Below are positions 1-63,184 of a DNA stretch of 64,000 nucleotides, piece by piece. The translations under genes were made by a program, and so were the position numbers. The notes below the pieces were generated by a model. That model made no database searches. It was given only the letters and a program-made list of their open reading frames with translations, and had not been told where the DNA came from. The first letter of the stretch is position 1. Every line of letters begins with the position of its first letter. This DNA is from Panorpa germanica. Taxonomy: Eukaryota > Arthropoda > Insecta > Mecoptera > Panorpidae. The stretch is from the NCBI GenBank assembly GCA_963678705.1, contig OY783219.1, positions 9,052,001-9,116,000 on the forward strand, in the 5' to 3' direction.

Positions 1-1534
1 TAAATTAATTATACAAAATTAGTATTTGAAATTACTTGTACTTATGATACTGACTTTTAATAAAATAAAAACATTCAAGAAAATTTATTTTTTATTTTCC
101 TGAACGCTGCAAGCTTTCAAAGACTAATAACTCTCTCGCTAAACACAAAAAATGAATACTACCTTACATTCTACTTATATAAATCCTAGTAATATTTAAT
201 TCAAAAGAGTCTTCTTTATAGTTATTCTACATTCTTAAAAGAATCTTCTTAAAAGGTCTTATAATTATGTTAATGATAAAAGGATAGAACTATTTTTTTT
301 AATTGTCGAAAAATAGGTCACAGTACATTGTATATTAAGTAACATTGTTTACGTAACAGTTAGTTTATGTTGTGTTAGATATACCTTAATTGTTTTAGCA
401 GGCAAGAATACTTAGTTCAAAAAATATGGATAAATAGTAAAAATTGTCTGATCTTTGAGACGTTATATCGATAGACATTCATATATAAAGAACTCAAGAT
501 AATTTTTATGGCTTAATAATTATTCATCCGATCAAGATCCAATTTTGAATGAAAATGTAAAATACATATCTGCAGAGGTTTTGCCCAACTCTGCAACTGT
601 TTTACTGTTTTCTCTCAATGTGAAAAACAGTACATTTAAGAAATTAACCTATGGCTTCATCAATTTTATGGAAAGATTTATGGAAATCCATTGGTACCTT
701 TTAGACAAAATGGCAACTATTTCACACACAGTTATATCTTTTGACTGTCTGTAGGTTGAACAATAAATAACATGTGTAAATAAAAAAAATATGAAGAATA
801 TAATACATGTTTGCATTTATTATATAAACTCGTATTTGAGTGCTGCTCTATTGCAGTCAAATAGAGAACAAAATTAATAAACTTATTATTATATTGCAAT
901 CTTAAATTTGACTGACAAACAGGCTCGATTTAAGCAACTTGTTTTTCAATTAAAGTAGTGTCGCCCTAGGGCACAGCATTTAGATTCGGGAGAACTAACA
1001 TATTTAAGGCTCCTTTAAATCTAAATTTCGCCAAATTCTACTATATCTAGTCAAATTTACTAACTAGGCAGTAAGTGACCCTTTTATTTGGAGGGTCTCG
1101 AGGCAGAAGCTCTTTTAGTTCTCCATTGTAGACGGGTAATATTTTCTTCTACCACCGAGATCTGCACTGATGGCAGCACCAGGCAAAGCCACGACTAGAC
1201 TTTCAATGCAACCATTAAAAGGATTTTTTGGAAAACCTCTTCTTATTTACTCCAAATTCAGGAATAGTTTATCGGAGTAGAGCCCAACATATTCGATTTT
1301 GCATTGCACCTTTAAAATCTAATAGCCCGCCGAATTCAGTTCGTGATGTTCCTACTTCAAATGGAAAAATATTATTATTCAGCAAAAACAAGATTGTTTT
1401 GTAAATCTTTCTTTGCCCGCAGGATTGACAACTTTTCAATATTTATATTTTAAGTGTTGTGATAATTCTGTCATTAACAAACCCCTCAGGACTAATTTCC
1501 GAAATTGTTATTGAACGTACTGACTAGATATAAG

Positions 1535-1570
1535 TATATATAAGCGAGGATAATTTATGACATTATCAGT
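1535..1570 (+). promoter_or_regulatory. core promoter of the chemosensory protein gene
   Basis: A TATATATAAG box lies at 1535-1544. An arthropod initiator TCAGT follows at 1566-1570, roughly 30 bp downstream, the normal TATA-to-Inr spacing. The start codon at 1614 follows after a short 5' UTR. The assignment rests on motif and spacing only. Confidence 0.6.
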
Positions 1571-1613
1571 TAACTGCAAACATTGCAATTAAAACATCTA
1601 CTAAACCAGAATC

Positions 1614-2974
1614 ATGAAGAATATGGTAAGTTAAAAAAATAATAATAAAATATTACAGCTATATAAATCTTATTAATTTTAGCATTTATTCAAACCACTG
1701 TTATTCAATAACTAAACCATTTATTCTTGATTTTCAAAGGGAGCTATGTTAGGCCTATTGGTCGGCGCTTGCATGATCTACGGAGCTTTTGGAGACGCTG
1801 GACTACACGAGTCTGTAACCTTAGACCATATTGATGAAATCCAAAACAATGCTGATGACTATGAAGCGTCGATCAAATGTTTTAGAGAAGAAGGTCCTTG
1901 TACCGACAAAGTCCAAAAACTAAAAGGTATGAATATCAAAGTGCCGCTTTACGATCTACTCGCAGTCGTGTATATCCAGAATATCTTTGGATACATAGTG
2001 TGTACTGATTAACATTAAAGGAGAAAATTCATTTGCTGTATATTGTGCTATTGTGAAATAACTCCAATTCACTGTATTCAAAAAAGATAGCAGTAGTAGC
2101 CTGTTCCAGTGTGAAATCACAATGGAGTTGTGTCCTCATTTTTTAGTGGTCAATTTTTCAATTGTTGATTGAAATTGATGTTAATAAATATGTTTGGTGT
2201 GTCTATTTTATTAAATATCTAAATGTTGACGGAGATATAGCAATTAATAATTTGAATTGTAGTTTTAGCGCTAGAAATGGTCGGCCATATTTATATGACG
2301 TGAAATGCATTTTAACGTCAGTTATTTGTTGAGTAGGTCAGTGCTGCGGTAATGTTCTATAGCTGTTGGTAGTCGAAATAATCAAGTCAAGTCAAAGAAT
2401 AATAAGTTTTTATTTTATTTAACCTTGTTAAGGCAGACATAATATTGGAATTTTATTGTTCCTTGAAATAGCTGTAAATAATATTTAATATTTTGATATA
2501 TAAATACATATAGCAGAGATTTATGAGCTGTAAGGTTGGCAGCGATTGTGATGTTACATGCATATGGAATGTATACAACGTTGAATCCCTTTAATAATTA
2601 AAGAGACAAAATGACTTTTTTAATTGTTAATATCTCTTAACATATAAGGAGTTATTAAAAAATAATTGAACATTTGAGTTTCTAGTAACCAACTTTATCA
2701 ATATATAGTACACTTTAATAGAAATTAAGACATAGGACACAAGCCTATTATGATACTACCAACACAATTAAATTTACTTTCTTCTTTTGCAGACGTCTTC
2801 CCCGAAATTTACAAAGCCGCCTGCTCTCATTGTTCCGAGGGGGAGAAGGGTATCTACAAACGTGGATGCAGCAAGGTATACCGTGACAGCCGTGACGACT
2901 TTGACTACATTGTTAGACTTGTTGATGCAGAAGGCATTTATTATGATGAATTCGTCAAATTCTGCATCGCATAA
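1614..2974 (+). CDS. chemosensory protein (OS-D / CSP family)
   Basis: Secreted carrier of small hydrophobic ligands, as known for the OS-D family. The exons are 1614-1625, 1740-1926 and 2793-2974, which total 381 nt and give 126 residues. Exon 1 codes only for MKNM. Exon 2 completes a hydrophobic signal peptide (about residues 1-24) and carries the first two cysteines (CFREEGPC, spacing C-X6-C). The last exon carries CSHC (C-X2-C), with 18 residues between the pairs, the diagnostic CSP spacing. Intron 2 follows one base into the codon after a Lys, the classical CSP intron site. Two extra cysteines near the C-terminus (GCSK and FCIA) are unusual and could form a third disulfide. Intron 2 contains a 630-bp MITE. 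A polyadenylation signal AATAAA is at 3021-3026. Confidence 0.93.
2121..2749 (+). mobile_element. MITE family A copy in CSP intron 2
   Basis: This roughly 630-bp non-coding element has inverted ends related to GGGCTTGTGTCCT / AGGACACAAGCCC. Both ends are mutated here (GGAGTTGTGTCCT and AGGACACAAGCCT). The body matches the copies at 3335, 8328, 31455, 47865 and 49856. It sits between CSP exons 2 and 3 and ends about 40 bp before the acceptor of exon 3. Confidence 0.85.
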
Positions 2975-3334
2975 TTGAACAATATCTGTCACAAATGACT
3001 ATTACAGAGTTATTACCAAGAATAAAATAAACATAATTGTTGTTTTCATTCTTTTATATTTTAATAAATTTTACGCAAAACTGAAACCAAATTGTTTTCT
3101 TTTACACTTTGTTCTGTTTGATTTGTTTGATATTACCATGTCATTCCTGTAACACCCTGTGTAATTAAAATATTAATTAAGGTAAGTGTTACATTTAAAA
3201 AATTACTATAAAAATTTCAACAATTAATAAAAATCGCTAATAGCTAGCAGTCCACTAATAGTTAATTTTATATATATTTATATACCTGAATATAATTATA
3301 TATAAAAATTTAGTCTGCGTTTGTGACAGTGACA

Positions 3335-3952
3335 GGCTTGTGTCCTCATTTTTAAGGTCGATTTTTCAATAATTGATTGAAATTGATGTTTATAAATGTG
3401 TATTGGCGTGTCTATTTTATTAAATATCTAAATGTTGAAGGAGATATAGCAATTAAAATTTTGAATTGTAGTTTTAGCGCTAGAAATGGTCGGATATATT
3501 TGTATGAAGTGAAAAGCATTTTAACGTCAGTTATTTGTTGAGTAGGTCAGTGCTGTGGTAATGTTTTGTAGCTGTTGGTAGTTGAAATAATCAAGTCAAA
3601 TCAAAGAATAATAAGTTTTTGATTTATTTAACCTTGTTACGGCAGATATAATATTGAAATCATATTGTTCCTAGAAATAGCTGTAATTAATATTTGATAT
3701 TTTGATATATAAATACATATAGCAGAGATTTATGAGCTGTAAGGTTGGTAGCCTTACACAAGGATTGTGATGTCACATGCACTTGGAATGTGTACAACGT
3801 TGTGAATCCCTTTAATAATTAAAGAGACAAATGACTTTTTTAATTGTTAATATCTCTTAACATATTAGGAGTTATTAAAAAATAATTGGACATTTATATA
3901 GACATTTTATATACACTTATATAGATATTAAGACATAGGACACAAGCCCATT
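3335..3952 (+). mobile_element. MITE family A copy
   Basis: Second copy of the element with GGCTTGTGTCCTCATTTT at the left and GGACACAAGCCCATT at the right. It directly abuts the hAT-like end (CGCCACTG, read inwards) that bounds the inverted duplication starting near 3955. Confidence 0.85.
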
Positions 3953-3954
3953 TT

Positions 3955-4830
3955 TGGCGTTGCGCAAGTCCGCCACTGAGTACATCTTACGATCTATCAA
4001 ATATTACAAAAAAATAATATCATCAATTTTTCAGGGTAAAAGCTTTTATTACAGTTTCATAGTATAATAAATAAATACATTGCAAATTAGTTTTTCAAAA
4101 AATGACATCTGTTGATAGGACAATCTAATTATCATTATCATTCATCTTGAAGAAGAATGCAGCTTCTAATGTGATACATCTTCATGAACTTTACAAAATA
4201 ACCTGAAATGTTTAAAAATATATGTACTTACACATATGCTTATGTACATATGTATATTATATTTGAAATACCACAAGTAAATACCTATAAAACATTTGGA
4301 TATACATACTATATTCAAGGTATATGCATTCATATATACTGAATATCCTATGTATATGCTGTTGTAATGTAAAACGTACACTGTATGTCTTATGTATGTG
4401 CATATCTAAATATTGCTGCATGTATATTGTATGTATGCTTATGTTTATCCATTTCATGTATATGCAATATATATACAGGATTTTCACATTATGGATTATA
4501 TATGAATATACAGGAAATAACTAAAAAATTGTGGATATTAATGAATAATACTAACACAAATAGACTGTATACATTCCAGTAGGTCACTAGAAAATGACGG
4601 TGACTCTGGAATATCACCGGGAAGCATCACAGGCCCAGACGGGGGAGCTACTTCTATTAGATTTTCCGTCCAAGACGGAGGAATAGGCAGCCCAACTTGC
4701 ATCTTTTACAATCTTCTACAATAAAGAAAACATTTGTTACAAATTTCAGTTTTAATGTTCGTATATCCAGCCATACCTGCTGAACACAGCACAAATATCT
4801 AAGATTTAAAATATTAAAACTATTACTTTT
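3955..4830 (-). repeat. left arm of an inverted duplication (partner 6950-7795)
   Basis: Read on the minus strand, this arm aligns over most of its length with the plus strand of 6950-7795. The two arms share the 5' leader, a 61-bp first intron, a roughly 355-bp second intron, the terminal exon, the 3' UTR, the polyadenylation signal and the outer edge with a CAGTGGCGGA end. Each arm carries one CaaX-peptide gene, so transcription runs outwards from the middle. Only the central coding exon is strongly divergent between arms. Confidence 0.85.
4191..4702 (-). CDS. short CaaX-terminated peptide, member 1 (ends CVIL)
   Basis: Coding exons are 4556-4702 and 4191-4202 (minus strand), giving 52 residues. 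A non-coding leader exon ends at 4777 (GCAG|GTATGG), followed by a 61-bp intron with acceptor TATTGTAG before 4715. The peptide starts MQVGLPIPPSWTEN, is rich in Pro, Ser and acidic residues, and ends ECIQSIC + VIL. The intron donor GTTAGT follows the final TGT codon exactly. The last exon is GTT ATT TTG TAA, creating the CaaX box CVIL, a known geranylgeranyltransferase I type signal. There is no signal peptide, so a cytosolic, membrane-anchored product is inferred. AATAAA lies at 4045-4050 on this strand. Compared with member 2, a short in-frame stretch (IQSIC) lies before the splice site. I recognise no homologue. Confidence 0.65.
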
Positions 4831-5052
4831 ACACTTGAGCTATAGTAAAATTCCATTAATTTAAAATTCACTTGTAAAAATTGAAAACCTAAACTTACCA
4901 TTAAATTAAATGCAGAGGCGAATTAAATGTAGGGTTCATATGATGGTAGATGCAACCTTACAAAAAGTATTATTATGATTGGATACAAGTAAACTTGGCG
5001 TGAAACTTCGTTTAAGAAAACAATTTCATGAGCGACACAGAGGGCCCACAAG

Positions 5053-5768
5053 CAGTGGCGTAGCTAGGTAACCAAAGGCCTCGGTGCAAAAAAAAAATCT
5101 GGGCCCCTAACTATAGGCTAACTATAGATGGGCGAAATAATGGTCCGATTTGAAGTACGACTTCACCGTTGGAATCAACGGAAAATTTTACCCTAAAATA
5201 CATTTTAAAAAGTTGAGGAAAACGAGTTTTAAGTTTTCGGTTTATGTTAAGGTAAGACAGGAAAAACAAACGTCACTACCTTTTGAACCGCTGGTCCGAT
5301 TTGAAAATGGTTTTCACTGTTGGATTCATCGGAAAATTGTACGAGAAAATACATTTTCAAAAATTAAGAAAACGCAAATTTTGTAAAATTTTCGACTTTT
5401 AAGTTTTTGGTTTATGTTAAGATAAGACGAAAAAAATTAATGTGCTCCGATTTGAAAAATTTAAACGGGTCCTATAGTAAAATTCAACGCTGATTCCAAA
5501 TCCGTAAAAAAATTCATTCCTATTTAGAATTTTTGTTATTGTTTATGTTTTTGTTATAAAAGTTTTGTAAGCATTGTCGGGAATAACTATTTACTAAGGG
5601 TATTACTTCACTGTGAAACCGTTAAAATATAAATATAAGTTATAAAAGTCCGAGGGCCCCCTAAGCTTGGTGGCCCCGGTGCACTGCACCGACTCGCCCA
5701 TACCTAGTGCCATGCCATGCCAGTGCCATACCATGCCAGTGCCCACAAGCGGGTTAATTCGCCACTGC
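5053..5768. mobile_element. hAT-like non-autonomous element
   Basis: The ends are CAGTGGCGTAGCTAGGTA at the left and an inverted CGCCACTG at the right, typical of hAT superfamily termini. The interior has several sub-repeats (for example a 'ggtccgatttgaa' phrase near 5140 and 5289, and 'ttaagttttcggtttatgttaag' near 5230 and 5399) but no convincing transposase. It lies in the spacer between the two arms of the inverted duplication. No clean 8-bp target duplication was seen, so boundaries are approximate. Confidence 0.55.
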
Positions 5769-6111
5769 TCTTAAGCCAATGAAAGTTAATAAAATATTAA
5801 TATAGGTAAGTGGTTTAAATTATTATTAAATAGTGTTAAAACACCTGAATAATCTCAGACAGTGAAGACTAACAATCGAGTCGACGTCCAGTGGATAAGT
5901 CACTCAGATTTGTACTTGTTAAGGTATTGTAATCAATAATATATGTACCCGCTAAACACAGTTACGTAAATGTAAGGTTTATTTAACATAATTAAGTTTT
6001 CCTTTTATTTAACTTTTCTTAGGTTAAATGAAAAACATTTTGCAGAGAATGCAAAATACATTAAAAATCTTGTACAGCTATATTAATTTAATATGTAAAA
6101 TTTTATACCAG

Positions 6112-6765
6112 AATATACCCCCGTCGCGAAGCGACGTCTATTTAGTCTGTATGATTTGAATCCAACAAAGTAATTCGTATTTTCATTTTAAATTTTAATT
6201 CTATTTTCAAATTGAAATATTTAACTCATTCATTAATAAATAATTTTTCATATAAATTAACTAAAAAAATTTATTTCTTTCAACAAATTATTTTATTAAA
6301 TATTTTCAATTTATTCGTTAATTGACCAACTTTTTAAACATTTCAACTTTCTAGCCCTATTTTTACCCTCGACAAAAACCACCCTCGAGCCCCCAAATAA
6401 AATCTTTGAATTTTTAATTCTATTTTTTTAATAATATATTTCATTATTAAGTAATCCAAAATTTGAGTTTTCTCCAAAGTTTCCAACCGGGCCCCCTAAT
6501 TTTTTCAACGCCCCCTTTTTCAATTTCTTAATTTTTAATTTTCAAAAAATGTTAGCATTGAACATCGTAATACACATGCCAAATTTCAACTTTCTATCTT
6601 TTACGAATTAAAAGTATAACTTTAGCAAAAAGCAAAAGTATAGTGAGCAAAAAGTAAAAAATATTTTTTTAGATTTTCCAAAATTACTGGTTTCCAGGAT
6701 GCGCGGAGCCGTTTTCGAGCTACCATACAAATCGCGTAAACATATAAACATATCAACAAACAAAC
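6112..6765 (+). repeat. interspersed repeat D, copy 1 (CGTCGCGAAGCGACG hairpin)
   Basis: It begins with a short palindrome CGTCGCGAAGCGACG and shares a roughly 650-bp AT-rich body and a distal GCGCGGAGCCGTTTTCGAGC segment with 9870-10570. Shared phrases include 'ccaaatttcaactttctatctttt'. No protein-coding capacity was seen. A Helitron-like or MITE origin is possible but cannot be decided from two copies. Confidence 0.65.
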
Positions 6766-6949
6766 AAATAAACAAATAAAAAAGTAAACAAAAAAACAAA
6801 TAAACAAAACATATAAACTTTCAGTTGGAACATTATAATATAGGATATTGCATAGAAAGATTTATTAACGGCAGAAAACGTAAATTTATGTCCAAAGATA
6901 TTTTTGGTTATGTAATCTTATATTATATTAACCTAAAAAAATGTAAATA

Positions 6950-7795
6950 TGTTATATTAAATCTTAGATATATGTGACTGTCTTCAGCAGGTATGGCTGG
7001 ATATACGAACATTAAAACTGAAATTTTTAGCAAATGTTTTCTTTGTTGTAGAACATTGTAAAGATGAAAATTTTGCTGCCTATTCCTCCATGTGGTGCGA
7101 AAGTTCCTCCGTCTCAGTCTATGTTGCCTGAAGCCATACGAGACTGTCCTATCTGGCCAGACGACTGTGTTAGTATTATTCATTAATATTTACATATTGT
7201 TAGATATTTCCTGTATATTCATATATAATCCATAATGTGAAAATCCTGTATATATTATATTGCATATACATGAAATGAATAAACATAAGCATACATACAA
7301 TAAACATGCAGCAATATTTAGATATGCGAATACATATGACATACAGTGCACGTTTTACATCACAACAGCATATACATAGGATATTCAATATATATGAATG
7401 CATATACCTTGAATATAATATGTATATCCAAATGTTTTATAGGTATTTACTTGTGGTATTTCAAATATAATATACATATGTACATAAGCATATGTGTAAG
7501 TACATATATTTTTAAACATTTCAGGTTATTTTGTAAAGTTCATAAAGATGTATCACATTAGAAGCTGCATTCTTCTTCAACGTGAATGTGCAATAATTAG
7601 ATTGTCCTATCAACGGATGTCATTTTTTGAAAAACTAATTTGCAATGCATTCTGTTATTATACTATGAAACTGTAATAAAAGCTTTTACCCTGAAAAAAT
7701 GATGATTTTATTTTTTTGTAATAGTTAATAGATCGTAAGATGTATTCAGTGGCGGATTTCGTTATTTGTAGGTCCAGTGCAACGCCACAAAAATT
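6950..7795 (+). repeat. right arm of the inverted duplication (partner 3955-4830)
   Basis: Inverted partner of the left arm. Non-coding parts match closely, including the leader around 6965-6990, the intron 7169-7524 and the 3' UTR with AATAAA at 7675-7680. The outer edge near 7750 carries CAGTGGCGGATTTCG, the same hAT-like end seen at the other outer edge near 3975. Confidence 0.85.
7064..7536 (+). CDS. short CaaX-terminated peptide, member 2 (ends CVIL)
   Basis: Coding exons 7064-7168 and 7525-7536 give 38 residues. The leader exon ends at 6990 (TCAGCAG|GTATGG). A 61-bp intron follows, with acceptor TTTGTTGTAG at 7051. The peptide begins MKILLPIPPCGAKVPPS and ends WPDDC + VIL. As in member 1, the donor GTTAGT comes immediately after the TGT codon, and the terminal exon is GTT ATT TTG TAA preceded by ACATTTCAG. 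The result is a CVIL CaaX box, a geranylgeranylation-type signal in known proteins such as G-gamma subunits. Two further cysteines lie in the body. Retention of the intron would instead add VSIIH-stop and remove the CaaX signal. AATAAA is at 7675-7680. No known family recognised; membrane anchoring is inferred from the CaaX box. Confidence 0.7.
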
Positions 7796-7827
7796 GATTG
7801 TATCTAGAATGAATTGTATCCACTCAC

Positions 7828-7864
7828 AATGGGCTTGTGTCTTCATTTTTCAGTGGTCGATTTA
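7828..7864 (+). mobile_element. MITE family A, end fragment
   Basis: Only the first 35 bp of the element remains (AATGGGCTTGTGTCTTCATT). It then passes directly into repeat E, suggesting repeat E inserted into or recombined with this copy. Confidence 0.6.
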
Positions 7865-8328
7865 AATGTCTAGCTTTGCGATGAAATATAGTTCTAGCAA
7901 TTTTATGTTCTTAAAAAAAAATATGATTAATTTAGTTATTTTTTAATTTATTAAAAAGTTTTAACTTATTCAGCATTCCTGCCATAAAAGTACATATATA
8001 AGTTAATGAATAAATATTATTGTTAATAATTATTTCCGCGATGAATCGCATTGCATTAGCCACGCACCGTAAAAATCACTTATCAATTTAATAACACTAA
8101 TGCTAAATTTAAATTCTTTTTCAATTATTTATTGTAATTTAAAAATGATCCATACTACGTATTTCATTACTCTTATTTATTTAATTAAAGTAGCTTTAAT
8201 AAATTGAAATATTTATAAAGTACTTTTGATTAACATCAGTTGAAGAAAGTAATACACACACTTGGCCAATACTGGTCGTGACATCTATTAGAACTTTTCA
8301 GAACTAAACCTACTCACTGCAATAATAA
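7864..8328 (+). repeat. repeat E, copy 1
   Basis: About 465 bp, nearly identical to 12340-12815 (shared 'aatgtctagcttt', 'ttccgcgatgaatcgcattgc' and 'cagttgaagaaagtaatacac'). Both copies lie next to a family A MITE on their right side. No coding potential seen. Confidence 0.75.
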
Positions 8329-9019
8329 TGGGCTTGTGTCCTCATTTTTTAGTAGTCGATTTTTCAATTGTGGATTGAAATTGATGTAAATAAATGTGTA
8401 TTGGCGTGTCTATTTTATTAAATATCTAAATGTTGACGGAAATATAGCAATTAAAAATTTGAATTGCAGTTTTAGCACTAGAAATGGTCAGTTATATTTG
8501 TATGACGTGAAATGCATTTTAACGTCTGTTATTTGTTGAGTAGATCAGTGCTGTGGTAAAGTTTTGTAGCCCTTGGTAGTCGAAATAATCAAGTCAAGCA
8601 AAGAATAATAAGTTTTTATTTTATTTAACCCTATTACGGCATACATAATATTGGAATTGTATTGTTTCTTGAAATAGTAAATAATATTTTGATATATAAA
8701 TACATATAGCAGAGATTTATGAACTGTAAGGTTGGTAATCTGTAAACTTGTCAGAATACTGTCAAGAAAATATCTCTTTTACGCTCTGTTGTATAAAAGA
8801 AATAGCAACTACCGGTTGTGATGTCACATGCATTTGAAATGTGTACAACGTTGAATCCCTTTAATAATTAAAGAGAGAAGATGACTATATTAATTGTTAA
8901 TATCTCTTAACATATAAGGAGTTATTAAACAATAATTGAACATTTGAGGTTCTAGTAACCCACTTTATCAATATATAGTACACTTTTGTAGAAATTAAAA
9001 CATAGGACACAAGCCCATT
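8328..9019 (+). mobile_element. MITE family A, near full-length copy
   Basis: Both ends are intact (AATGGGCTTGTGTCCTCATT and GGACACAAGCCCATT). The 690-bp length exceeds the other copies because of a segment near 8750-8815 ('aacttgtcagaatactgtcaag') that is also present in the copy at 36046. This shows two length variants of the family. Confidence 0.85.
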
Positions 9020-9161
9020 GTCTTCAACGGTAGGCCTATTTCAAAGGTAGAGCAGAATATTCAACTTTTCTTGAACAAACTATCTATCTGAATCAGAATC
9101 ATATCTAATGGTACAAATCAGATTTAAAGCAATTGTTCTGCTTGTTACAACTTATTCTAAC

Positions 9162-9235
9162 ATGGGCTTGTAAAGCATGTTTTAATTTCTATAAAACTGC
9201 ACTATACATTGATAAAGTTGGCTTGCAGAACGGCT
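9162..9235 (+). mobile_element. MITE family A, short degenerate fragment
   Basis: A short stretch matches the subterminal part of the element read from the other end (ATGGGCTTG, then 'taatttctataaaactgcactat' and 'ttgataaagttgg'). Nothing else is recognised between here and 9860. Confidence 0.5.
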
Positions 9236-9869
9236 CTAGACGATGCGGTGAACGTTTGATTCAAATGCTTGTCTCCAACGTGTGAGTCAAATATTGGAAG
9301 ATTGACACGGTGGAACGTATGTTTGATGACACTGACACTGTTTAAGAAAAACTTTCAAGTATAAAACCTTCAAATGTTGATCAAGTGTGTGGTGGGGGTA
9401 GAAAAATCCCCTTGACGCGAGTCAAAAGACCGATAACAGCCCGAACTTCTTCTAAGTAGAACGCACTTAGTTCCAGCGTCGGCCACACGATGCGTCCAAC
9501 GTTGGAAGGTATTCGTAGCTTATTACAATAGGTGGTTCGTGTTATATTATAATAAATGCAAGATTTAATAAAGCTATTGAACCGCAGTAATATAATAAAA
9601 AAAATCAAAGAAAATGAAATTCTTTATTTAATTCATCCAAAATAGTACAAGAATCACCCTGCAATAGCCACATTTTTTAAAGTATTAAACTTTAAACTAT
9701 TAAACACCTTGTGCAAATAAAATTTTAATAAATTTAAGTGTATTTAAATTATTATTAAAAATATGTTTAATAATTCAGAATATCAAAAATCGAGAACAGT
9801 CGCAACAGTCAATTAGTAAAGGAAAGTTCTTAGCTCTGATTTTAACATATAAGGTATACATATATACTA

Positions 9870-10570
9870 AAGTTAACCCCGTCGCAAGCGACGACTGTCA
9901 TTTATGTGTGCATTGAATTTCATTTCAAATTTTAATTCCATTTTTAAATTGAAATATTAAACTCGTTCCATATTTGTTCTTGTTTGTTTACATATAACAA
10001 CAAATAATTTTTCATATTAACTGACTAAAAAAATATATTTTTTCCTTTATAATATTTATCCTTTTTTTAAAATTTGGGATTTTATTTTTCGACTTGTAAA
10101 TTAGATACCAAAGTTAGCCCATATATAAAATATTAACTTTCTAACCCTATTTTTAACCTCGGCAAAAAACCGCCCCCGTGTCCCCAAATGAATTTTGAAT
10201 TTTTTTTTCTTAATAACATATTTCATTATTATGTATTCCAAAATTTGAGTTTTCTCCAAAATTTCGTACCGCTCCCCCTAATTTTCTAATTTTTTCCATT
10301 TTTCAATTTCTTATTTTCAAAAAATGTTAGCATTGAACACCGTAATACACATGCCAAATTTCAACTTTCTATCTTTTATGAAGTAAAAGTAACGGTAAAA
10401 ATTTCTTTTTAAGTTTTTCTAAAACTACGGGTTTTCAGGAAATTCAGGAGAAAATCCAAGGACGCCAAAGGTGTTAGAATTTTTTTTCTCTTCGAAATAG
10501 GCAATTTTTAAGAAAATGCGTGGAGCCATTTTCGAGCTAGCATACAAAATTCGAACCAAACATATAAGAA
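9870..10570 (+). repeat. interspersed repeat D, copy 2
   Basis: Partner of 6112-6765. It starts with CCCCGTCGCAAGCGACG and ends near GCGTGGAGCCATTTTCGAGC. It contains an extra segment near 10430-10500 that copy 1 lacks. No open reading frame of note. Confidence 0.65.
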
Positions 10571-10958
10571 AATAATATATGTATTTTATATATCTCCAAT
10601 TTTATTAGGAATTGTACATTTTTAAACAAACTTATGTGTTGCGTCATTGCGTTATGTGTTGTGTCAAAGACTTTCATTTTAGTAATTTACGCATTATAAT
10701 AATTACACTGTTTAACTTAAATCATGCTATCTTACCTGAAATCAAAGAAACGACTTTTAAAGTTTATTATTTAAATTGTCAATTCCTTTTTATTTGATTT
10801 TTTAATAACTTAACAATATGCACAGTGAGTTCTGCAAACTCCAAATATCAACTATGCTGGCCGTTATTTCTCACAGCGTCATCTATGAAGTTCACGAGTA
10901 TATGGTCACTGTTTTACCGACAACGAGCTTTGTACCAACTAAAGAAATTTAATTTCTT

Positions 10959-11108
<150 letters not shown>

Positions 11109-11167
11109 TGTTCAGTAATAATATAAAGTGTAATAAATTCTTTTTAAATTCTTATCAGATACACAAG

Positions 11168-11416
11168 ATGCCAGCACTTGCTATTCCTGATACGCCTATT
11201 GGACCTCCTGTTTGGCCCACATGGCCTCAACCATTCCCTCGCCGTCAGTCTAACCGTGAAGATGTTGACGAGCCAGCGTTTGACAGGGACAGTAGTTTTT
11301 CATTGATCAATGTCAAATGTGTAAGTTATATCCATTGATATTTAAAAATCGCATTTCAATTATAATACATATAACATATACACTAAAGTTTAACTACATT
11401 TCAGTCCCTCCTGTGA
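11168..11416 (+). CDS. short CaaX-terminated peptide, member 3 (ends CSLL)
   Basis: Coding exons 11168-11320 and 11405-11416 give 54 residues. The start codon lies nine bases after a good acceptor (TTCTTATCAG), so an upstream non-coding exon is likely, as in members 1 and 2. The peptide begins MPALAIPDTPIGPPVW, continues with a Trp/Pro stretch (WPTWPQPFP), a basic RRQ, then an acidic half, and ends INVKC + SLL. The donor GTAAGT directly follows the TGT codon. The terminal exon is TCC CTC CTG TGA, giving CaaX box CSLL, whose final Leu favours geranylgeranylation. Intron retention would add VSYIH-stop. Overlapping AATAAA signals lie at 11527-11536. There is no signal peptide. It resembles members 1 and 2 in the N-terminal L-x-I-P motif and in gene structure, not in the rest. 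Confidence 0.6.
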
Positions 11417-11846
11417 AATGTTTGGACCTGCATCACTGTATTTGTCTCCAAGATAAATTTGAAATAATTTGATTGTTCTATCCACTGTTGTAACTTTTTC
11501 TTAGCAAATTTCAAAATTTCTCTTTAAATAAATAAATGTCTATTCGAAATGAATATACATGAATACGTTATGCATAAAACTATTACATAATAAAAGCTTC
11601 TAATTTGAAAAATATATGTTTATTTTGATTTTGTAAAAGTTAGTACATTAAATTATGTAAAGACACCTGTACTATAGACAGTGTTTTTAGTTTTTTAATA
11701 GCAAATTTAAATTGAGGTTAAGTTGAACAATTGTAGTAAATTCAATAGAAGTTTACAATACATTCTTATTTTACTTATGTTAAGTAAGTTTTCAACTTAT
11801 TTTTTTCATTTCTTTTTTATTTATTTATATTAATGTACAACATATT

Positions 11847-12250
11847 AAATTGAAACGATACTTGACCATTTTTTCTAGCGAAATATAGATGGCGACACTA
11901 TACAGCAGGTTAAATATTGTCAAAGAAACCATGTGTTTTTATGTTTAAATCGTTTTATGTAAGTAAATATAAACGCGAATCAAAATCTAAAGCTGCAATT
12001 AGTTAGATGAATAACGTATCTACATTTTAAGCTTTCTTCCACTGACTTTCAATGAGTTGGAACCGCAAAAATAAGTTTTGAAAATGAGTATTGCTATATT
12101 TTCTAGTTAAATTCCAATTTTAGTATTTCAGAATACTCTATATATTTTTAAGTCGTAAGCGTGTTTGAGAACCATAATAAAGGCTATAAAATTTATGACA
12201 AACCCTTAGAAATGTTACCAGTCATATAAAAATTGGAATTTAACTATATT
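11847..12250 (+). mobile_element. MITE family B, partial copy
   Basis: It shows the left terminal sequence TGAAACGATACTTGACCATTTTT followed by the shared body ('gcgaaatatagatggcgac', 'cattttaagctttcttccactgac'). The right inverted end is missing. Related copies lie at 14095, 34448, 40300 and 56305. Confidence 0.75.
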
Positions 12251-12339
12251 AACCAAGAATTAAAAAATCAGTGAGTTCACAACGCAATTTGTTTCAAGTA
12301 GTAGTCACCGCCCAACTCTCGTAATTTTAACTATTTATA

Positions 12340-12815
12340 AATGTCTAGCTTTGCAATGACATATAGTTCTAGTAATTTTATATTCTTGAAAAAAAAAAAA
12401 GATTAATTTAATTATTTTTTATTTTATTAAAAGGTTTTAGTTTATTCAGCCTTCCTGCCATAAAAGTACATATATATATAAGTTAATGAATAAATATTAT
12501 TGTTCGTAATTATTTCCGCGATGAATCGCATTGCATTAGCCACGCACCGTAAAAATCACTTATCAATTTAATAACACTAATGCTAAATTTAAATTCTTTT
12601 TCAATTATTTATTGTAATTTAAAAATGATCCATACTACGTATTTCATTACTCTTATTTATTTAATTAAAGTAGCTTTAATAAATTGAAATATTTATAAAG
12701 TACTTTTGATTAACATCAGTTGAAGAAAGTAATACACTCGTGGCCAATACTGGTTGTGACATCTATTAGAACTTTTCAGAACTAAACCTACTCACTGCAA
12801 TAATAATTAAAATTC
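12340..12815 (+). repeat. repeat E, copy 2
   Basis: Near-identical to 7864-8328 and, like it, followed at once by a family A MITE. The shared arrangement suggests the two were mobilised or duplicated together. Confidence 0.75.
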
Positions 12816-12822
12816 AAGTAAG

Positions 12823-13318
12823 AATGGGCTTGTGCCCTATGTCTTAATTTCTATAACAGTGTACTATATATTGATAAAGTTGGTTACTAGAACCTCAAAT
12901 GTCCAATTATTTTTAATAACTCCTTGTATGTTAGGAGATATTAACTATTAAAAAAGTCATTTTGTCCCTTCAATTATTAAAGGGATTCAACGTTATAGAA
13001 CATTCCAAGACATGTGACATCACGTCCGCTAAGTTGCTGTCTCTTTTATACAACAGAGCGTAAATAGGATAACATATTCAACACAGAACTCTTATCCATA
13101 GAAAAAATAAGTGACCTATCCATAATAGTACAGACATGTTACGTCATAAGTATGGCCGACATCTGTAGCGCTAAAACTACAATTCGAACTTTTAATTGCT
13201 ATATCTCCGTCAACATTTAGATATTTAATAAAATAGACACGCCAATACACATTTATTAACATCAATTTCAATCAACAATTGAAAAATCAACCACTGAAAA
13301 ATGAGAACAAAGCCCATT
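12823..13318 (-). mobile_element. MITE family A, inverted and internally deleted copy
   Basis: It runs from AATGGGCTTGTGCCCT to AGAACAAAGCCCATT, opposite in orientation to the copy at 8328. Shorter than the typical 620-690 bp, it lacks the central segment. Confidence 0.8.
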
Positions 13319-13963
13319 GTATATATAGTGACCCATTTTAAATAGGTCTTCAGCTGAAATTTTGCGCGGTAATAGCTTAAGGATAGATAAATAGGGAATT
13401 TATCAAATATACAAATGGAACGTTGTGATGACAATTCCAAAAATATAAAATTGGCAAAAGATTTGAAGATTTGACATTTAGAAAAACAATAATTAATTTC
13501 AAAAGATTAATTATTGTAAGTAACTTTTAAATTATTTATTTTATTATTGTAGAGAAAAGCTTTTAAAATCAGTAAAATCGATTATTCACATTTAATGCAA
13601 ATTTCAGATGGACTTTGTAATATTATTAGAGTAATGGTTACAGAGTGTCCAAAAATTTTGACAAAAGAAGACAACGTATGAAGAGGAATCTAGTGTCCAC
13701 TTATAGTTGAATTTTAGGACACATTGTATATGTTTAATTACAATTTTTTAAACATTACTACTTTTCAGAATACCCTTTCAAAACTAATTTCATTAAATTA
13801 AATTTTACACATATTATTAAAACAATATAGCAATTAGAATTAGCGAAAAATAACACCGGGAAATCTATAGCGCATTTGCGCATAATTTAATAGATTTTGT
13901 AGTACTATATACATACATTTTTTTCCTTTGACTCTATTATATTCCTAAAATTAATACTAAAAA

Positions 13964-14793
13964 ATGGATAATATGAATTTAATCCACCAATGGTGGGACG
14001 ACGCTCATTTCCACTGGGAAATTCTAGAGGACTGCGTAAGTAAATTTAATAACTTTTTACATTCTGATTATGTGCAACCATTTAGTTAATTATATTAGGG
14101 TAAAACGATAATTAAGTCATTTTTTCTCCCGAAATATAGATGGCGATACTATACAGCAGGTTAAATATTATCAAAAAAAACATGTTTTTTTATGTTTAAA
14201 TCAATATATGTAAGTAACTATAAACGCGAATCAAAATCTAGAGCTGCAATTAGTTAGATGAATAACGTATCTACATTTTAAGCTTTCTTCCACTGACTTT
14301 TAATGAGTTGGAACCGCAAAAATACGCTTTGAAAATGAATATTGCTATATATTCTAGTTAAATTCCAATTTTTATATGACTGGTAACATTTCTAAGGGTT
14401 TGTCATAAATTTTATAACCTTTATTATGGTTCTCAAACTTACGCTTATGACTTAAAATTATATAGAGTATTAGATAATATAGCAATATTCATTTTCAAAA
14501 CTGATTTTTGTGTTTCCAACTCATTAAAAGTCAGTGGAAGAAAGCTTAAAATGTAGATACGTTATTCATCTAACTAATTGCAGCTTTAGATTTTGATTCG
14601 CGTTTATAGTTACTTACATAAAACGATTTAAACATAAAAAAACATGGTTTTTTTGGTAATATTTAACCTGCTGTATAGTATGTCCATCTATATTTCGCGA
14701 ATCAAAAATGGCCAAGTATCGTTTCACCTTAATTGAATTGATATAATTTAAAGTCAATATTTTTTTGTAATTTTGTTCAAGGTCATTATATAA
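13964..14793 (+). CDS. short CaaX-terminated peptide, member 4 (ends CVII)
   Basis: Coding exons 13964-14035 and 14782-14793 give 27 residues. The peptide begins MDNMNLIHQWWDDAHFHWEI and finishes LEDC + VII. It is rich in Trp, His and acidic residues and lacks the Pro-rich start of members 1-3. The donor GTAAGT is exactly after the TGC codon. The terminal exon GTC ATT ATA TAA is preceded by TTTTGTTCAAG. The box CVII is CaaX-like, with Ile as X, which can be read by geranylgeranyl- or farnesyltransferase. The 746-bp intron holds a complete family B MITE. AATAAA lies at 14994-14999. Reading through the intron would give an 18-codon non-CaaX tail. Without the other members this would be weak, but the identical Cys/intron arrangement supports it. 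No homologue recognised. Confidence 0.5.
14095..14732 (+). mobile_element. MITE family B copy inside the member 4 intron
   Basis: The left end is degenerate (AGGGTAAAACGATAATTAAG) and the right end is intact (GGCCAAGTATCGTTTCACCTTAA). The long inverted halves mirror each other ('gattcgcgtttatag', 'gctgcaattagttagatgaat'). A snap-back structure is expected in the pre-mRNA. Confidence 0.85.
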
Positions 14794-14999
14794 GAGTATA
14801 AAAGGCACTACACTAAAAATGCAGCTGTCTAATCAAGAACCTTACAAAGGAACCTTAAAAAAACAGATCCTGTAGATATCAATATGTATTTTACAATCTT
14901 TATATTATATTTTAAACTTATGAATTTATTATTTTTAAACAAATTTTCATTTTAAGTTCAATTTGATAGATTGTATTCTTCTCTATATGCTGCAATAAA

Positions 15000-15780
15000 G
15001 TTAAATATATAAATTCAATTAATTTGTTCAATTAATAGTTTTGATTTCTTAAACTTAATTGTTGATATACTATGAATGCTTTTAAATTTAAAAATAATGA
15101 AGTAAATTTGAATTAACCATAGATACTTTTATATTTTCAATTATTATGCGCCTGATTACATGCAACTATTCCATCACTTAAATTTTGCATTGTTTGTTTC
15201 GTAGTCCATAAATCAGGGGCAATCATTACCTGTTGCTAAAATCGGTATTATATGATATGACTGCACATGCGAAATCAATTGTATCTAGTCACAACATCCA
15301 GCCTTCACTTAATCCACTCCTGCTTATATGCTATTTTCTATATTTAACAAGCGTCTTTATAATAGAAATTAGATTATACAATCGAATGCTATATAGAATT
15401 TTGAGAAAAAGCTTATTTGAAAATTGTAAAAATTTGCACTGGATAGAATTGATAGTAGGTTAGCACTTCTATGGTTTCAATCTCATTATCCTGATTTGTG
15501 TTAACTGTTCCAACTCGAAAAGGTCACCCGAAAATATAAAGACAAATTGACACTGGATGTATTTCTCTATCCAATAACATCATGCAAAATATAATTGTCA
15601 GGATTGAATATTAGAGAATTGTCAAGACAGTATTGAATATTAGAGTTGAAGCAAGTTGTATCGTTCTTGCGAATGGACCAATGGATAAGAATCTTGAAGA
15701 CGTGTGCTGTAATAAATAAAAATTAAGAAACTGTTCTTAAAAAGAAGTTTTTTGATTCGTCAAGATTCAAAAAGAAAATT
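15000..15780. other. gene-free AT-rich stretch
   Basis: I see no supported gene, repeat family or RNA between the polyadenylation site of CaaX member 4 and the tRNA. A 76-codon open frame near 15233-15463 has no recognisable content. Confidence 0.5.
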
Positions 15781-15862
15781 CGCAGTCGGTAGGATTCGAA
15801 CCTACGCTCCCAGAGGGAATCTGATTTCTAGTCAGACGCCTTAACCGCTCGGCCACGACTGC
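15781..15862 (-). tRNA. tRNA-Ser(AGA)
   Basis: An 82-nt cloverleaf on the minus strand. The 7-bp acceptor pairs GCAGTCG with CGACTGC and leaves discriminator G. The anticodon stem TCTGA/TCAGA holds loop CTAGAAA with anticodon AGA (complement of 15827-15829). A long class II variable arm (TCCCTCTGGGAG) is characteristic of tRNA-Ser. Internal promoter boxes are TGGCCGAGCGG (A) and GGTTCGAATCC (B). A T-run follows at the 3' side (complement of 15774-15777), serving as the Pol III terminator. No intron. Confidence 0.97.
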
Positions 15863-18049
15863 TGTTGTAATAATTTTTCTGATTAAACTTCTAATTCGAT
15901 ATCTATGATTAGCATATTAAAGTGTATTACAACACTTCATTACCTTCAACATTTTATTTAATTATATTTTTGATTAACTTTTAAAACTATCTTTTAAGCC
16001 ATAACACTTTCATCGATATGTTTAATGCAGTGGTGACCTAAGCTCATCCGATAAGTCGCCCTTAAAACGTAAGTTGTAATGGTGTATATATATATATATA
16101 TTATAAATTTCCCTATATTATAAAGCCCCTCGAATTGTGGCGCTCCTAGCCCCTAATTTGTTCTTACAGTGGATGCCATCACATTTTTAATTATAGTCGC
16201 CTTTAAAATTTTGTCGCTTTTCAAATTGTTGCACCCCTATCCCCTAAACTCATAATAAATTTGTTCTTATAGTCGACGAAAAAGGCATTAGATTTCGAAT
16301 TAAAAGTTTGTCGCCTCTAGGCCCGGGCCTCACGAGTATGTGTAGGCCTAAATTCATCGATAGTTTAACCTGACCTTATGCTAATTTATTAGTTCCAGCG
16401 GAACTTACACCACCACGTGTTTTTGCAATCGAAACATATTTAACAAGACACAAATCCATTTCAATAAAGTGACAAGTAACAATTTTACGTAACTAAGGAG
16501 TAAAGTATATATTTGACAATTTCAGAAGCCCATTAATCAATCTTCAGTCATAAGCAAATGACAAGTTTAATTATTATTTTAACAAATTAGAAATTACTTT
16601 TTGAATTACTACTTTACCCGTATGACATATTTTTTACGAAGTTAATTAAATAAAATATCTTGTTTCATTTAATAACAGTTTTATATGGGATTGCGTAAAA
16701 TAAACACCAATTAAATTAAGAGCGACTCAATTTATTAAAAATGTACAATTATTTCGTAGTTAATACGTATATAAAAATATGAACAAGAAAAATATTATAC
16801 CATATTATTAATAATATAAAATATTGGAAGTTTTAGTTCGTTATCATTTACTATATATCAATATATGCTTACACATTAATTACCGACATTTATGAGTATA
16901 TTTTCATCCCAGCTACAACACAGTTGCTCTGAAATTTGAACTTAGAAGTACTACAATTAACCATTTACTTATTTCGTATCGAGTGAGTATTTGTGCCTCA
17001 ACAAATTCGGACAAAATTTACTTGAATAGATGTAAAGATACACATTTTATGACTGTAATAAAAAAGTTTCAGGTAGTATTCAACTTTTGTATAAATACGC
17101 AATTACTCAACAACTAAAATCGCCTCGTGAGAACCCCACTTAAGCTTGCTATACCCCAATAAATCAAATGCTAACTTCAGATTGTCATAACAATCACCTG
17201 CTTACAACGGTAAGTATTTCAATTGTAATTTGTTTTAAGAAACCTAATTAAATTTTATTTCCACCTACTAAGTATTAGTTTTAATTTAATGTTTTAACCA
17301 TTAAGCCCCCTACACACGAACCAACATTATTCTTGATACTTTTTTTTTTATTTGAATCTGTTTTTGTACACACATGAAATATATAACTGTACTATTAAAT
17401 TTTTGTTCAGTCACTATATATTATTATATTCGTGTGTTGGGAGTAATAAAAATCGCTTACAATTCAGTTTTTCACAGTGGTTCATATGAAATGTACTTGA
17501 TATGGGCTATAACTGCCGAAAACACTTCATCTGTCAAAATACAAGCGATGAAAAAGTTGATGCGAACTACAATTGAACTACATTTCACCAAATTTTTTAA
17601 TGTGATCCGACCTGATTCATATTTCAGTTCTATAATATTAATAATTATTGAAAGTAATTGTCACTCAAATATGGTATCATTTTATAAAAGTTGTTTTTCA
17701 TTTGTTATATTTCATAGATATCAATATTTATAATAACATTTTATGTGCTACATATTCAACTTAAAAAATTTCTAATAAATATATTATTTCTGACATTAAA
17801 AATATGCGGAACATGATTAATACTGAATTTATAATACTGAAATTTAAATAAACATATAATATTTAACTTAATACTATTCTTAAAGTATATACGACACATA
17901 TCTTTAAGAAACTTACAATGATTGAAAATAATTATGCACTATTTTATATAGCTTCAATAAAAATATTAAATTTCATTTTTGAAAAGTCACATGATTAAAA
18001 AAATAACAGCAAATGTATACATGTCGTATAACTTATCATTATAAAATAA
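15863..18049. other. gene-poor stretch upstream of the tRNA
   Basis: It contains a short (TA) run at 16085-16101. A degraded copy of the small repeat F lies about 17440-17610 ('aaagttgatgcgaactacaattgaa'), related to 36066-36319 and 49540-49770. The 119-codon open frame at 17374-17733 overlaps that repeat and is not considered a gene. Nothing else recognised. Confidence 0.45.
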
Positions 18050-21000
18050 TTAATTTGAGCTTACTATCTGATCTGATTGATCTAAATCAATTTCCATTGG
18101 TTCATGAGCATTACTGAGATCATTATATTCAGTAAAAAGATCAGCGAGTTGTGATAATGTTAAATCCTTATCATTCCAGTTTGAATTCGAACTATTTTCA
18201 ACACATGTGTTTACAATATTATGAATTCGTTCTTCAATTGTATTTTTTACAATAAATCTATGCACAAATGTTGGTTTTGTTTGACCAATTCGATGAACTC
18301 GGCCAATTGCTTGAAGTTCATCTCCTGGATTTAAAATTGGTTCCATTAGAATAACATGAGTTGCTTCAATTAAATTTAAACCCTTTGATCCATATCGCAA
18401 TGGCATTAACAAGCACGTCACAGAAAACTTTGGGTCCTAAAAATATATTCAAAAATAAATAAATATTATATTGTTAATCTAAATATAAAAGTAATCGGTG
18501 TTTAATCCATGTCACAATTAAAGTATTTATATATATAGTTCAAATTACGAGAGTTCGGCGGCGACATAACTAAAAAGCACTGATTCACTCATTTTTCTAC
18601 AATGTATATAGAAACGAATAAGATTAGTTTTAAAGTTTAGTTTAAGTTGCAATGCACAGAGCAATGAAATGTATTAAGAAATAGAATACGGAAGATTGTA
18701 ACTAGACACAAGATATAAAAGGATTTGGGAGAGAGAGATACCACAGTACTTAATAGAAAAAGACATAAAAAAACATGAGAAGGATTGCAAGGTTTAGATT
18801 GGGAAACGAGGAGAAAGGAAACTGATAATGGGCAAATAGCAAGGAAAGAATGTGTAGAGTGTGCGGAACGGAGATTGAAACACTGGAGAACATTAAGTTT
18901 GCTTGTCAGGAAAAAGTAATGAGCGAGAAGAATATTGGGCAGCTATTAAAGGGAGGCAGTGAAGGAAAGAGGTGGATGGCGGAAATAGAAAAAAGGAACG
19001 AAAAACAAGACAATAAATAATCTCGTTATCTGGTTTGCATGGGGAACATGCAACAGTTTAGTTTTAAGTAAATAATTAGTTTTAAATAAAATTAATAAAG
19101 TTTAGTTTTAAGGTTGAATTGTTAAGATAAGAATGAAATATAATAAGAAATAGAATACGGTAGATTGTAAAGCCTAAAGGCACACACAATTAATAATAAA
19201 TAATAAGAATAATTATTATATATTGAATCGATCGAATAAAGAAACCGAACCAATAACACTGCGCCGTATTACATGAACTCTACAGAGATCAATATTAAAT
19301 ACTTTATTTAAGATGGAACATAATTTTAAAAACAATATACTCACTTTAAACTGATAAATTTGGTTCCCTGAACTACCAGTTTGAAGCCTGTATTTTACTT
19401 TATTTTCTAATAAAGCCTTAGCAATACACTCCAACATATCTCCCCATGTTGAGAAAATAATAATTTTAACATCAGGATCGGTTCCCAATAAATTTAAAAC
19501 GCAATTGACTATGCCATCGATTTTAGTTGAATACCATCCGGTAACCTTAGTCTCTTCAGATATACTTTTAGATAATTGTGAAGATACGTAAGAAATAGTA
19601 TTTTTATTCTGGTGTACTCTGCAGACACAACAATTAAAACCATTTGTTCTATTTGAAGATATTAACACTTGCACACAGTCTATACAAAAGCAATGGCCGC
19701 ATGCTAAGACTGTCCACTATAAATAAATTGAATAAATATTAATACCTAATGTTTGCAAGAAACATTGAAGTGTGAAAAAAAAAAACTGAATGCATTTTAT
19801 TCATACTATTTATAATACCTGTTTTCCTAAAGATTCACGACAAACGGGACAAAGTTCTGGATTTGACTGCATGCCTTCTTTATAAATATTTTGCAAATTC
19901 TTCAAGTACATAAAAGAAAGATGTTTTTGCACTACATTTTGTTCAGAAATTTGTCGGTCAACTTGAAATTGTCGCAAAGATCCAGCAACCTAAAATAAAA
20001 GTAGTTAAAAAATTCGCCGTAATTTTGCTTGATTTAAAATAATTTCTTAAAATTTTTTTACCTCATCTTCTTCAAAGAAATGATGGACTCTTATTTCTTC
20101 ACGTTCTTGCAGAGCTCTAAGTGTTCTCATAGATCTTGATACATCAGTAGAACTACTATTGGGTATATAGTCATCTACTTTTAACTGCATTCTAGTTTTA
20201 CATAATGTTAACTCATCACTAGCACTTACTAAATCTAGATAATGCGTGTAATACCTATTCCACTCTTTAAATTCCTTTTTAATAGATTCTATCCAAAGTA
20301 ACTGAATATCGCCATCTTCAACGAGTTCTTGTGGGGCGTTCTTATTTCTAGCGAATGATATGAAGCTTTTAATCATCCATTCTACATACGATGGCTGCCA
20401 AGAACCTTTATTAGCAATATCCTGTTCCTTGAAATTATTTTTTCTAAATGCCATATGATAAATTAGACATTCTACTGCTTTTATTTTCTTATTGAATTTA
20501 CATATAAGACATTTCGCTTTTTTTCCAGTTGTTCCACTTGTTAACACAGGTCTTAAATGACAATCTCTTCCTGTTTTGGATATTTTTTTGAAAAATTGTG
20601 TCCCAAAAAATGAAATTGCATCTATTTCGGAAATATGTAAATCTTGTAATATTTTCCCGATTGATTCATATTCTTTATATAAATCACCCAGCCAAGTTTT
20701 GAATGCATGTTGCATTTCAAAAATTGTATTGAGCCTGAAATATAATCAATTTGATTTAATTGTACAGAATAAGAAATAATGACAAAAAAAAATTATCTTA
20801 CTCTGCTGTAAATGTCTTTTCGTAAAAAGGAGATCCAAAAAGATCAGTAATATCTAATCGAACTTTTTGTTCAAGTTGATCGCTTAAATTATTATTCATG
20901 AACCAATTAATCATCTTTCCACACCAGTCTCCCATTGGAGCAGAAAAATCATTAAGACATTTTTCCACACCATTTATTGATTGCAGTAACTGCTCATTTT

Positions 21001-62970: not shown

Positions 62971-63184
62971 TAAAATATTTTATAATTAACTTCAATTTAA
63001 ATTAAAAAAAAGTCCCCTAAAAGCCAATTCCAATGAAAACAAGAACATATATTTAAGCAACCCTGTTATAAAAGATTCGAGTTTATTTATTGCGTTATAT
63101 TTTAAAATTAACCCTTTAGTATTCACTGTTACATACATTGACAACCTGTGAACGTAATCTATACGGTCTTTTAACAAGAGCGGT

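Follow-up and report, generated by a model that had tools for sequence, protein, structure and literature searches.

We analysed a 64,000-nucleotide stretch of chromosome 16 of the scorpionfly Panorpa germanica (positions 9052001 to 9116000; hereafter the window) in which four spliced micro-open reading frames (micro-ORFs), labelled g1, g2, g3 and g4, lie close together. A preliminary description had proposed four spliced genes within about 10.6 kb that encode peptides of 52, 38, 54 and 27 amino acids, and all four were reproduced at the coordinates given there (Table 1). Their spliced translations read MQVGLPIPPSWTENLIEVAPPSGPVMLPGDIPESPSFSSDLLECIQSIC/VIL (g1, minus strand, 52 residues), MKILLPIPPCGAKVPPSQSMLPEAIRDCPIWPDDC/VIL (g2, plus strand, 38 residues), MPALAIPDTPIGPPVWPTWPQPFPRRQSNREDVDEPAFDRDSSFSLINVKC/SLL (g3, plus strand, 54 residues) and MDNMNLIHQWWDDAHFHWEILEDC/VII (g4, plus strand, 27 residues), where the slash marks the splice junction; these bear out the C-terminal CaaX boxes previously listed, namely CVIL, CVIL, CSLL and CVII. 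The four share one design, with a TGY codon as the final codon ahead of the donor and a terminal exon of 12 nucleotides (nt) including the stop. When read without splicing, g1 and g2 end in CVSIIH, g3 in CVSYIH and g4 in a 17-residue tail. The CaaX box therefore depends on the splice, as had been stated. The splice pairs are good and an AATAAA signal lies downstream of each gene, again in agreement with that description. Two probable leader introns of 61 nt, absent from it, lie just 5' of the ATG in g1 and g2. Among ORFs that do not run off the end of the window, no stop-to-stop ORF of at least 110 amino acids occurs in positions 1 to 17355.

Table 1. Features of the four micro-genes in window coordinates, with their structure and the basis of each assignment (UTR, untranslated region).
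Feature	Position	Strand	Structure and basis
g1 AATAAA polyadenylation signal	4045..4050	-	AATAAA at 4050
g1 terminal coding exon	4191..4202	-	V-I-L-stop; same sequence as g2
g1 3' intron	4203..4555	-	GTTAGT...TTTCAG; 95.8% identity with g2 intron
g1 coding exon 1	4556..4702	-	49 codons, MQVGLPIPP...SIC; highly divergent from g2; translation, GC
g1 probable leader intron, 61 nt	4716..4776	-	GTATGG...TTGTAG; splice-like ends and homology with g2
g2 probable leader intron, 61 nt	6991..7051	+	GTATGG...TTGTAG; assigned as for g1
g2 coding exon 1	7064..7168	+	35 codons, MKILLPIPP...DDC; translation, GC, peptide similarity to g1
g2 3' intron	7169..7524	+	GTTAGT...TTTCAG; dispersed genomic repeat within about 7187-7471
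g2 terminal coding exon	7525..7536	+	V-I-L-stop; translation; acceptor rank 1/58
g2 3'UTR and downstream	7537..7755	+	homologous to g1, and to g3 at 7565-7628 and 7674-7733; AATAAA 7675
g3 coding exon 1	11168..11320	+	51 codons, MPALAIPD...VKC; translation, GC
g3 intron, 84 nt	11321..11404	+	GTAAGT...ACATTTCAG (3' end TTTCAG)
g3 terminal coding exon	11405..11416	+	S-L-L-stop
g3 3'UTR	11417..11648	+	homologous to g1/g2 at 11436-11499 and 11588-11648; AATAAA 11589
g4 coding exon 1	13964..14035	+	24 codons, MDNMNLIHQWWDDAHFHWEILEDC; candidate family member only; translation
g4 intron	14036..14781	+	GTAAGT...TTCAAG; fold-back repeat inside
g4 terminal coding exon	14782..14793	+	V-I-I-stop; AATAAA 14994; acceptor rank 4/60

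The genes g1 and g2 are copies in inverted orientation, and what surrounds their coding exons is far better conserved than the exons themselves. Identity between the two is 95% over 6961-7001 (the leader and the start of the leader intron), 94% over 7002-7051 (the remainder of that intron) and 91.7% over the 12 bases before the ATG. It is as high in the 3' intron (95.8%), complete in the terminal exon (100%) and 92.1% in the 3'UTR. The first coding exon, by contrast, is 62.7% identical over the 102 bases that align, and 42 columns of its alignment are gaps; similarity drops past the first 26 coding bases and resumes at the TGT codon and donor. The two peptides are related (p = 0.0008 against 5000 shuffles). 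One-base gaps are present in the leader and the stretch preceding the ATG, as expected of non-coding sequence, and both coding exons remain open. In the coding exon, the proportion of synonymous differences (pS) is 0.52 and that of nonsynonymous differences (pN) is 0.34, over 105 protein-aligned bases whose alignment is uncertain. Because pS exceeds pN, the exon looks old, and not demonstrably under positive selection. Positive selection on this exon thus finds no support as the explanation of the contrast with its flanks; homogenisation of the flanks by conversion between the inverted arms is the better fit and would account for it.

Kinship of g3 with this pair is evident in its 3' part. Two blocks of its 3'UTR match that of g2, one at 11436-11499 versus 7565-7628 (75% identity, blastn E = 2.9e-6) and one at 11588-11648 versus 7674-7733 (76% identity, blastn E = 1.0e-5), and an alignment of g1, g2 and g3 spans a common ACATTTCAG acceptor together with the polyadenylation region. 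Within the terminal exon, GTTATTTTGTAA in g2 corresponds to TCCCTCCTGTGA in g3, so that most nucleotides are replaced and a CaaX box is retained. Retention of the box despite changed terminal codons supports the CaaX reading.

We asked how often the architecture arises by chance. Both strands of 264 kb of chromosome 16 around the locus were scanned for an ATG-initiated ORF of at least 15 codons ending in a TGY codon directly followed by a GT donor, an intron of at most 1.2 kb, and an AG acceptor followed by three codons and a stop, with the resulting tail CaaX-like and ending in L, I, F or M. Four candidates were returned, exactly g1 to g4, and no others; a stricter first filter had recovered g3 alone, and the looser one then admitted all four. 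Block-Markov shuffling of these 264 kb, repeated 100 times under this filter, gave a mean of 1.22 candidates and never more than two within 10.7 kb, and the reversed sequence gave two pairings, both from one first exon. When the 13-kb locus was shuffled 1000 times, 949 shuffles contained no candidate, 51 contained one and none contained two or more, against the four observed. Allowing introns of up to 5 kb yielded 15 pairings, comprising g1 to g4, six others that start within the locus and five outside it. Pairing with a three-codon terminal exon of any kind is found for 12 distinct Cys-ending first exons of the unshuffled 264 kb.

The preliminary description spoke of a local family of four. 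This holds for g1 to g3 (through the introns of g1 and g2, and the acceptor and 3'UTR in all three), whereas g4 has no sequence detectably in common with them and shares the architecture alone. That g4 by itself is a chance look-alike beside a genuine three-gene family is somewhat unlikely in our judgement. It is suggested by the lack of common sequence and by the expectation of approximately 1.2 candidates in 264 kb by chance alone, and the 24-residue body has one weak match within those 264 kb (E = 0.021). On the other side, g4 has a consensus donor, an AATAAA and close proximity to g1 to g3, and only 51 of the 1000 locus shuffles produced even one candidate; we consider g4 likely to be a real gene. 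The weak match itself, at about 9.197 Mb on chromosome 16, has no Met after the last stop and ends in KCSL-stop, which is not a CaaX box, and was judged to be due to chance. A 269-nt fold-back repeat lies in the g4 intron (14088-14739, arms 89% complementary), and a related copy is found at 11867-12126, 3' of g3.

Base composition separates the first exons of g1 to g3 from their surroundings. Their GC contents are 47.6%, 48.6% and 49.0%, respectively, against a background of 29.5%, and these values are equalled by 0.6% (g1, of 7132), 0.8% (g2) and 0.2% (g3) of background windows. For g4 the corresponding exon has 43.1% GC, equalled by 6.5% of windows. AG dinucleotides within 1.5 kb were ranked as acceptors with a rough home-made matrix, so that ranks are approximate; the CaaX acceptor came first of 58 in g2 and second of 54 in g1 (tied in score).

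The genome that we searched comprises 464,208,970 bases in 249 contigs. A motif from the 3'UTR, with up to three mismatches, occurs at three sites in it, which are those of g1, g2 and g3, and at none in the reversed control. A donor-region motif is less selective, with 172 sites at up to two mismatches versus 139 in the reversed control; five of its matches are exact, three of them being g1 to g3. The two other exact matches, on chromosomes 17 and 11, were rejected, as they have an in-frame stop 21 and 11 codons upstream, respectively, no intervening Met and no CaaX structure. DNA searches of the 464 Mb placed the g3 stretch at one site and the 3' stretch of g2 at two, with no further copies, and the g3 peptide searched against the whole genome matched only itself. 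As far as the searches with the 3'UTR motif, g3 and the g2 3' stretch reach, the family thus appears to be restricted to this locus. A dispersed repeat is present in the 3' introns of g1 and g2 (about 7187-7471 in g2 and its counterpart in g1) and recurs on many chromosomes; all 40 scored matches outside the locus (40 of 1104 candidates) fall in it, at 76-87% identity. We rejected a transposable-element reading of g1 to g3, as the gene-body stretches (g3 and the 3' part of g2) are not dispersed and only the intron repeat is. None of the four peptides matched a Pfam family at E ≤ 10, a search in which the HMMER filters drop most matches above approximately 0.1. The earlier statement that no such insect family is known agrees with our searches of the open-access literature, which brought up none, judged by title and abstract.

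Geranylgeranyltransferase I (GGTase-I) recognises a Cys in the fourth position from the C-terminus, followed by aliphatic or otherwise tolerated residues at the a positions and Leu or Ile at X, and the boxes of g1 to g4, given the predicted splices, all have this form. In the CaaX pathway, geranylgeranylation by GGTase-I is followed by removal of AAX by Rce1/Ste24 and methylation by Icmt. CaaX proteins are often held at the plasma membrane by a basic patch; none is found next to the box in g1 to g4, and acidic residues adjoin it in g2 (DDC) and g4 (EDC). Acidic (D+E) and basic (K+R) residues number 6 and 0 in g1, 4 and 3 in g2, 7 and 5 in g3, and 6 and 0 in g4, so that all four peptides are net negative. 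Each of g1 to g3 contains 8 to 10 prolines and g4 contains none, and g1 and g2 carry additional upstream Cys residues. Judged by eye, no peptide has a hydrophobic N-terminal stretch; with no evident signal sequence, the peptides would be made in the cytosol. In g2 and g3 a coding exon farther upstream may conceivably have been missed.

We consider it fairly probable that g1 to g3, and probably g4, form a small orphan family, confined to one scorpionfly locus, of CaaX peptides with a variable body. If transcribed and spliced as predicted, each gene would yield a net negative peptide of 27 to 54 residues, synthesised in the cytosol, whose CaaX box is created when the 12-nt terminal exon is joined to the Cys codon. 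Geranylgeranylation of the resulting CaaL or CaaI box by GGTase-I, trimming by Rce1/Ste24 and methylation by Icmt would then direct the peptide to membranes. Constancy is seen in the CaaX exon, 3'UTR, introns and leader of g1 and g2 and in the box, acceptor and 3'UTR of g3, and in g1 and g2 it has probably been maintained by conversion between the inverted copies, while the bodies diverge. On this contrast we base the proposal that the tail serves all members as a means of delivery, with the body as the variable ligand. In the plain form of this proposal the body would be an intracellular ligand or decoy; in the bold form, the product would be an exported lipopeptide.

Several observations weigh against this proposal. 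The scan filter was loosened after the genes were known, so the count of four is post hoc, and as g1 and g2 are inverted duplicates, the four genes are not independent events. The body of the g3 peptide shows no recognisable likeness to that of g1 (p = 0.16) or of g2 (p = 0.48), and that of g4 resembles none of the other three (p = 0.18 to 0.69). A search of 5.8 billion proteins found no relative of g3, and the set of g1, g2 and g4 returned one candidate from the protein collection and none at E ≤ 10, although peptides this short may be missing from such collections. The g1/g2 exon, with pS above pN, gives no support for positive selection. Homology between g1 and g2 ends upstream at about 6956, some 110 nt 5' of the ATG, so common promoters are not established. 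The acceptors of g3 (9 of 66) and g4 are not the top-scoring ones nearby. Finally, the unspliced tail, C-V-S-x-I-H-stop, is similar across g1 to g3, which would suit non-coding or intron-retained RNAs with conserved 3' parts, with the ORFs or the splice to the CaaX exon being incidental. The greater likeness of g1 and g2 in their non-coding parts than in the ORF, and the lack of peptide homologues in the searches above, point the same way. We nevertheless regard this explanation as unlikely, because the frames are open in all four genes, the coding exons of g1 to g3 have an elevated GC content (47.6-49.0%), the donor and acceptor are kept, the box persists in g3 with altered codons, and the g1 and g2 peptides are related at the level given above. 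Alternatively, the exons may be the ends of longer multi-exon genes that keep the 12-nt exon as their last one but have further coding exons upstream, missed here and perhaps encoding a signal peptide. An acceptor-like site is found 13, 12 and 9 nt 5' of the ATG in g1, g2 and g3, respectively. Read upstream in the genome, the g2 frame meets a stop supplied by the end of the leader intron; once this intron is spliced out, 14 upstream codons are open, compared with 20 in g3. Both frames nonetheless run into a stop in contiguous sequence before any Met appears, an in-frame TAA lies two codons 5' of the ATG in g1 and g4, and the one-base gaps in the g1/g2 leader also argue against upstream coding, which makes longer genes quite improbable. 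By eye, a possible upstream exon of g1 can be seen in the region of about 4690-4900; ending in ATG at about 4900, it would encode, in a different frame, a short peptide that reads MIFVLCSAEDCKRCK..., and this reading is broken in g2.

The two readings weighed next are forms of the variable-ligand proposal, not alternatives to it. Membrane-tethered intracellular ligands or decoys, in which the proline-rich bodies of g1 to g3 would bind protein domains of the insect itself at the membrane, are a possibility that we hold tentatively, and fast-changing reproductive or antiviral conflict would be a conceivable setting. The prolines of g1 to g3, the additional Cys residues of g1 and g2 and the divergence of the bodies are consistent with it; the absence of proline from g4 and the lack of support for positive selection in the pN and pS values of g1/g2 weigh against it. 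Export of a geranylgeranylated lipopeptide resembling fungal a-factor, after an N-terminal cut and through an ABCB transporter, appears unlikely to us. Here the tail would carry export and the body specificity, which would fit the small size, the lack of an evident signal peptide, the constant tail and variable body, the box without a basic patch, and the DDC and EDC contexts of g2 and g4. Export of a germ-cell attractant (Mdr49) is reportedly the subject of a 2009 paper. Debate surrounds a geranylgeranyl-dependent attractant of germ cells in Drosophila (PMC3772052); that paper argues for a Hedgehog connection, which speaks against a parallel with the peptides described here. It is very unlikely, though worth stating, that these genes are the first animal counterpart of a-factor-type signals, with exported peptides acting between cells or individuals and with splicing or retention of the last intron switching between a lipidated CaaX form and an unlipidated CVSxIH form.

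The surroundings of the cluster contain further features. Between the genes, repeats at 3356-3960, 7913-9019 and 12389-13309 of the window are alike in direct and inverted orientation (79-99%), several of their segments are near the word ATGGGCTTGTGTCC, and the duplications may have been mediated by them as a mobile element. Beyond the window, upstream of the locus, a pair of long open frames of 1174 and 562 codons (L018:5406 to L019:561) resembles a retroelement. A tRNA-Ser (AGA) gene lies just beyond the cluster at 15781-15862 on the minus strand. Farther downstream are exons that we take to resemble SHPRH (18050-25521, minus strand) and exons of IWS1 (27553-29564, plus strand), the nearest conserved genes seen on that side. 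Among the 120 of 746 IWS1 matches that were listed, the closest named one was from Phlebotomus (85%), several from Lepidoptera and mosquitoes were at 79-82% and two from other Lepidoptera at 73-74%; the top identity among the matches listed was 87%. A tandem-repeat open frame with GYFMDVS-like and similar repeated units is found at 63158-63517.

G-protein gamma subunits and small GTPases carry CaaL boxes of the GGTase-I type. The box of g1 to g4 is of the same type, but the peptides match no Pfam family, are far shorter and have no basic patch. To our knowledge, the scorpionfly makes no galls. The pattern of the Hessian fly salivary genes nevertheless recurs at this locus, with a predicted lipid tail replacing the signal peptide. 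As described in PMC2955719, the SSSGP-1 family of the Hessian fly combines diversified coding sequence with conserved UTRs and intron, in clustered genes with one inverted copy; positive selection was found, and concerted homogenisation was proposed for the non-coding part. As in that account, non-coding conservation here exceeds coding conservation (in g1/g2 and in the 3'UTR of g3), and the clustered copies include an inverted one. In the SSSGPs, signal peptide and promoter are conserved, whereas g1 to g4 show no evident signal peptide and the homology of g1 and g2 stops some 110 nt 5' of the ATG. Positive selection was found in the SSSGPs, whereas the pN and pS of g1/g2 give no support for it, and the coding part conserved here is instead the CaaX exon at the C-terminus.

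Pheromone precursors of the a-type and h-type in fungi, as presented in PMC3068285, resemble g1 to g4 in being very short, with a C-terminal CaaX and a loose consensus. They differ in that our genes are from an animal genome, that their boxes end in L or I versus the M-ending box of HPP1, and that a 12-nt exon makes the box. The likeness is one of size and tail and not of sequence, with no Pfam match. That paper mentions a suggestion that the prenyl and methyl groups alone may suffice for export of a-factor, with some influence of sequence also reported; were the groups sufficient, bodies could vary, which would suit the pattern of g1 to g3. If expressed, the locus would provide an animal with a family of prenylated micro-peptides encoded in its genome, from genes that are invisible to ordinary ORF calling, as the lipid tag arises only via the splice to a 12-nt exon. 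The geranylgeranyl-dependent germ-cell attractant of Drosophila raises the question of prenylated peptide signals in animals, and g1 to g4 would then be concrete candidates for deciding whether animals, like fungi, signal with prenylated peptides.

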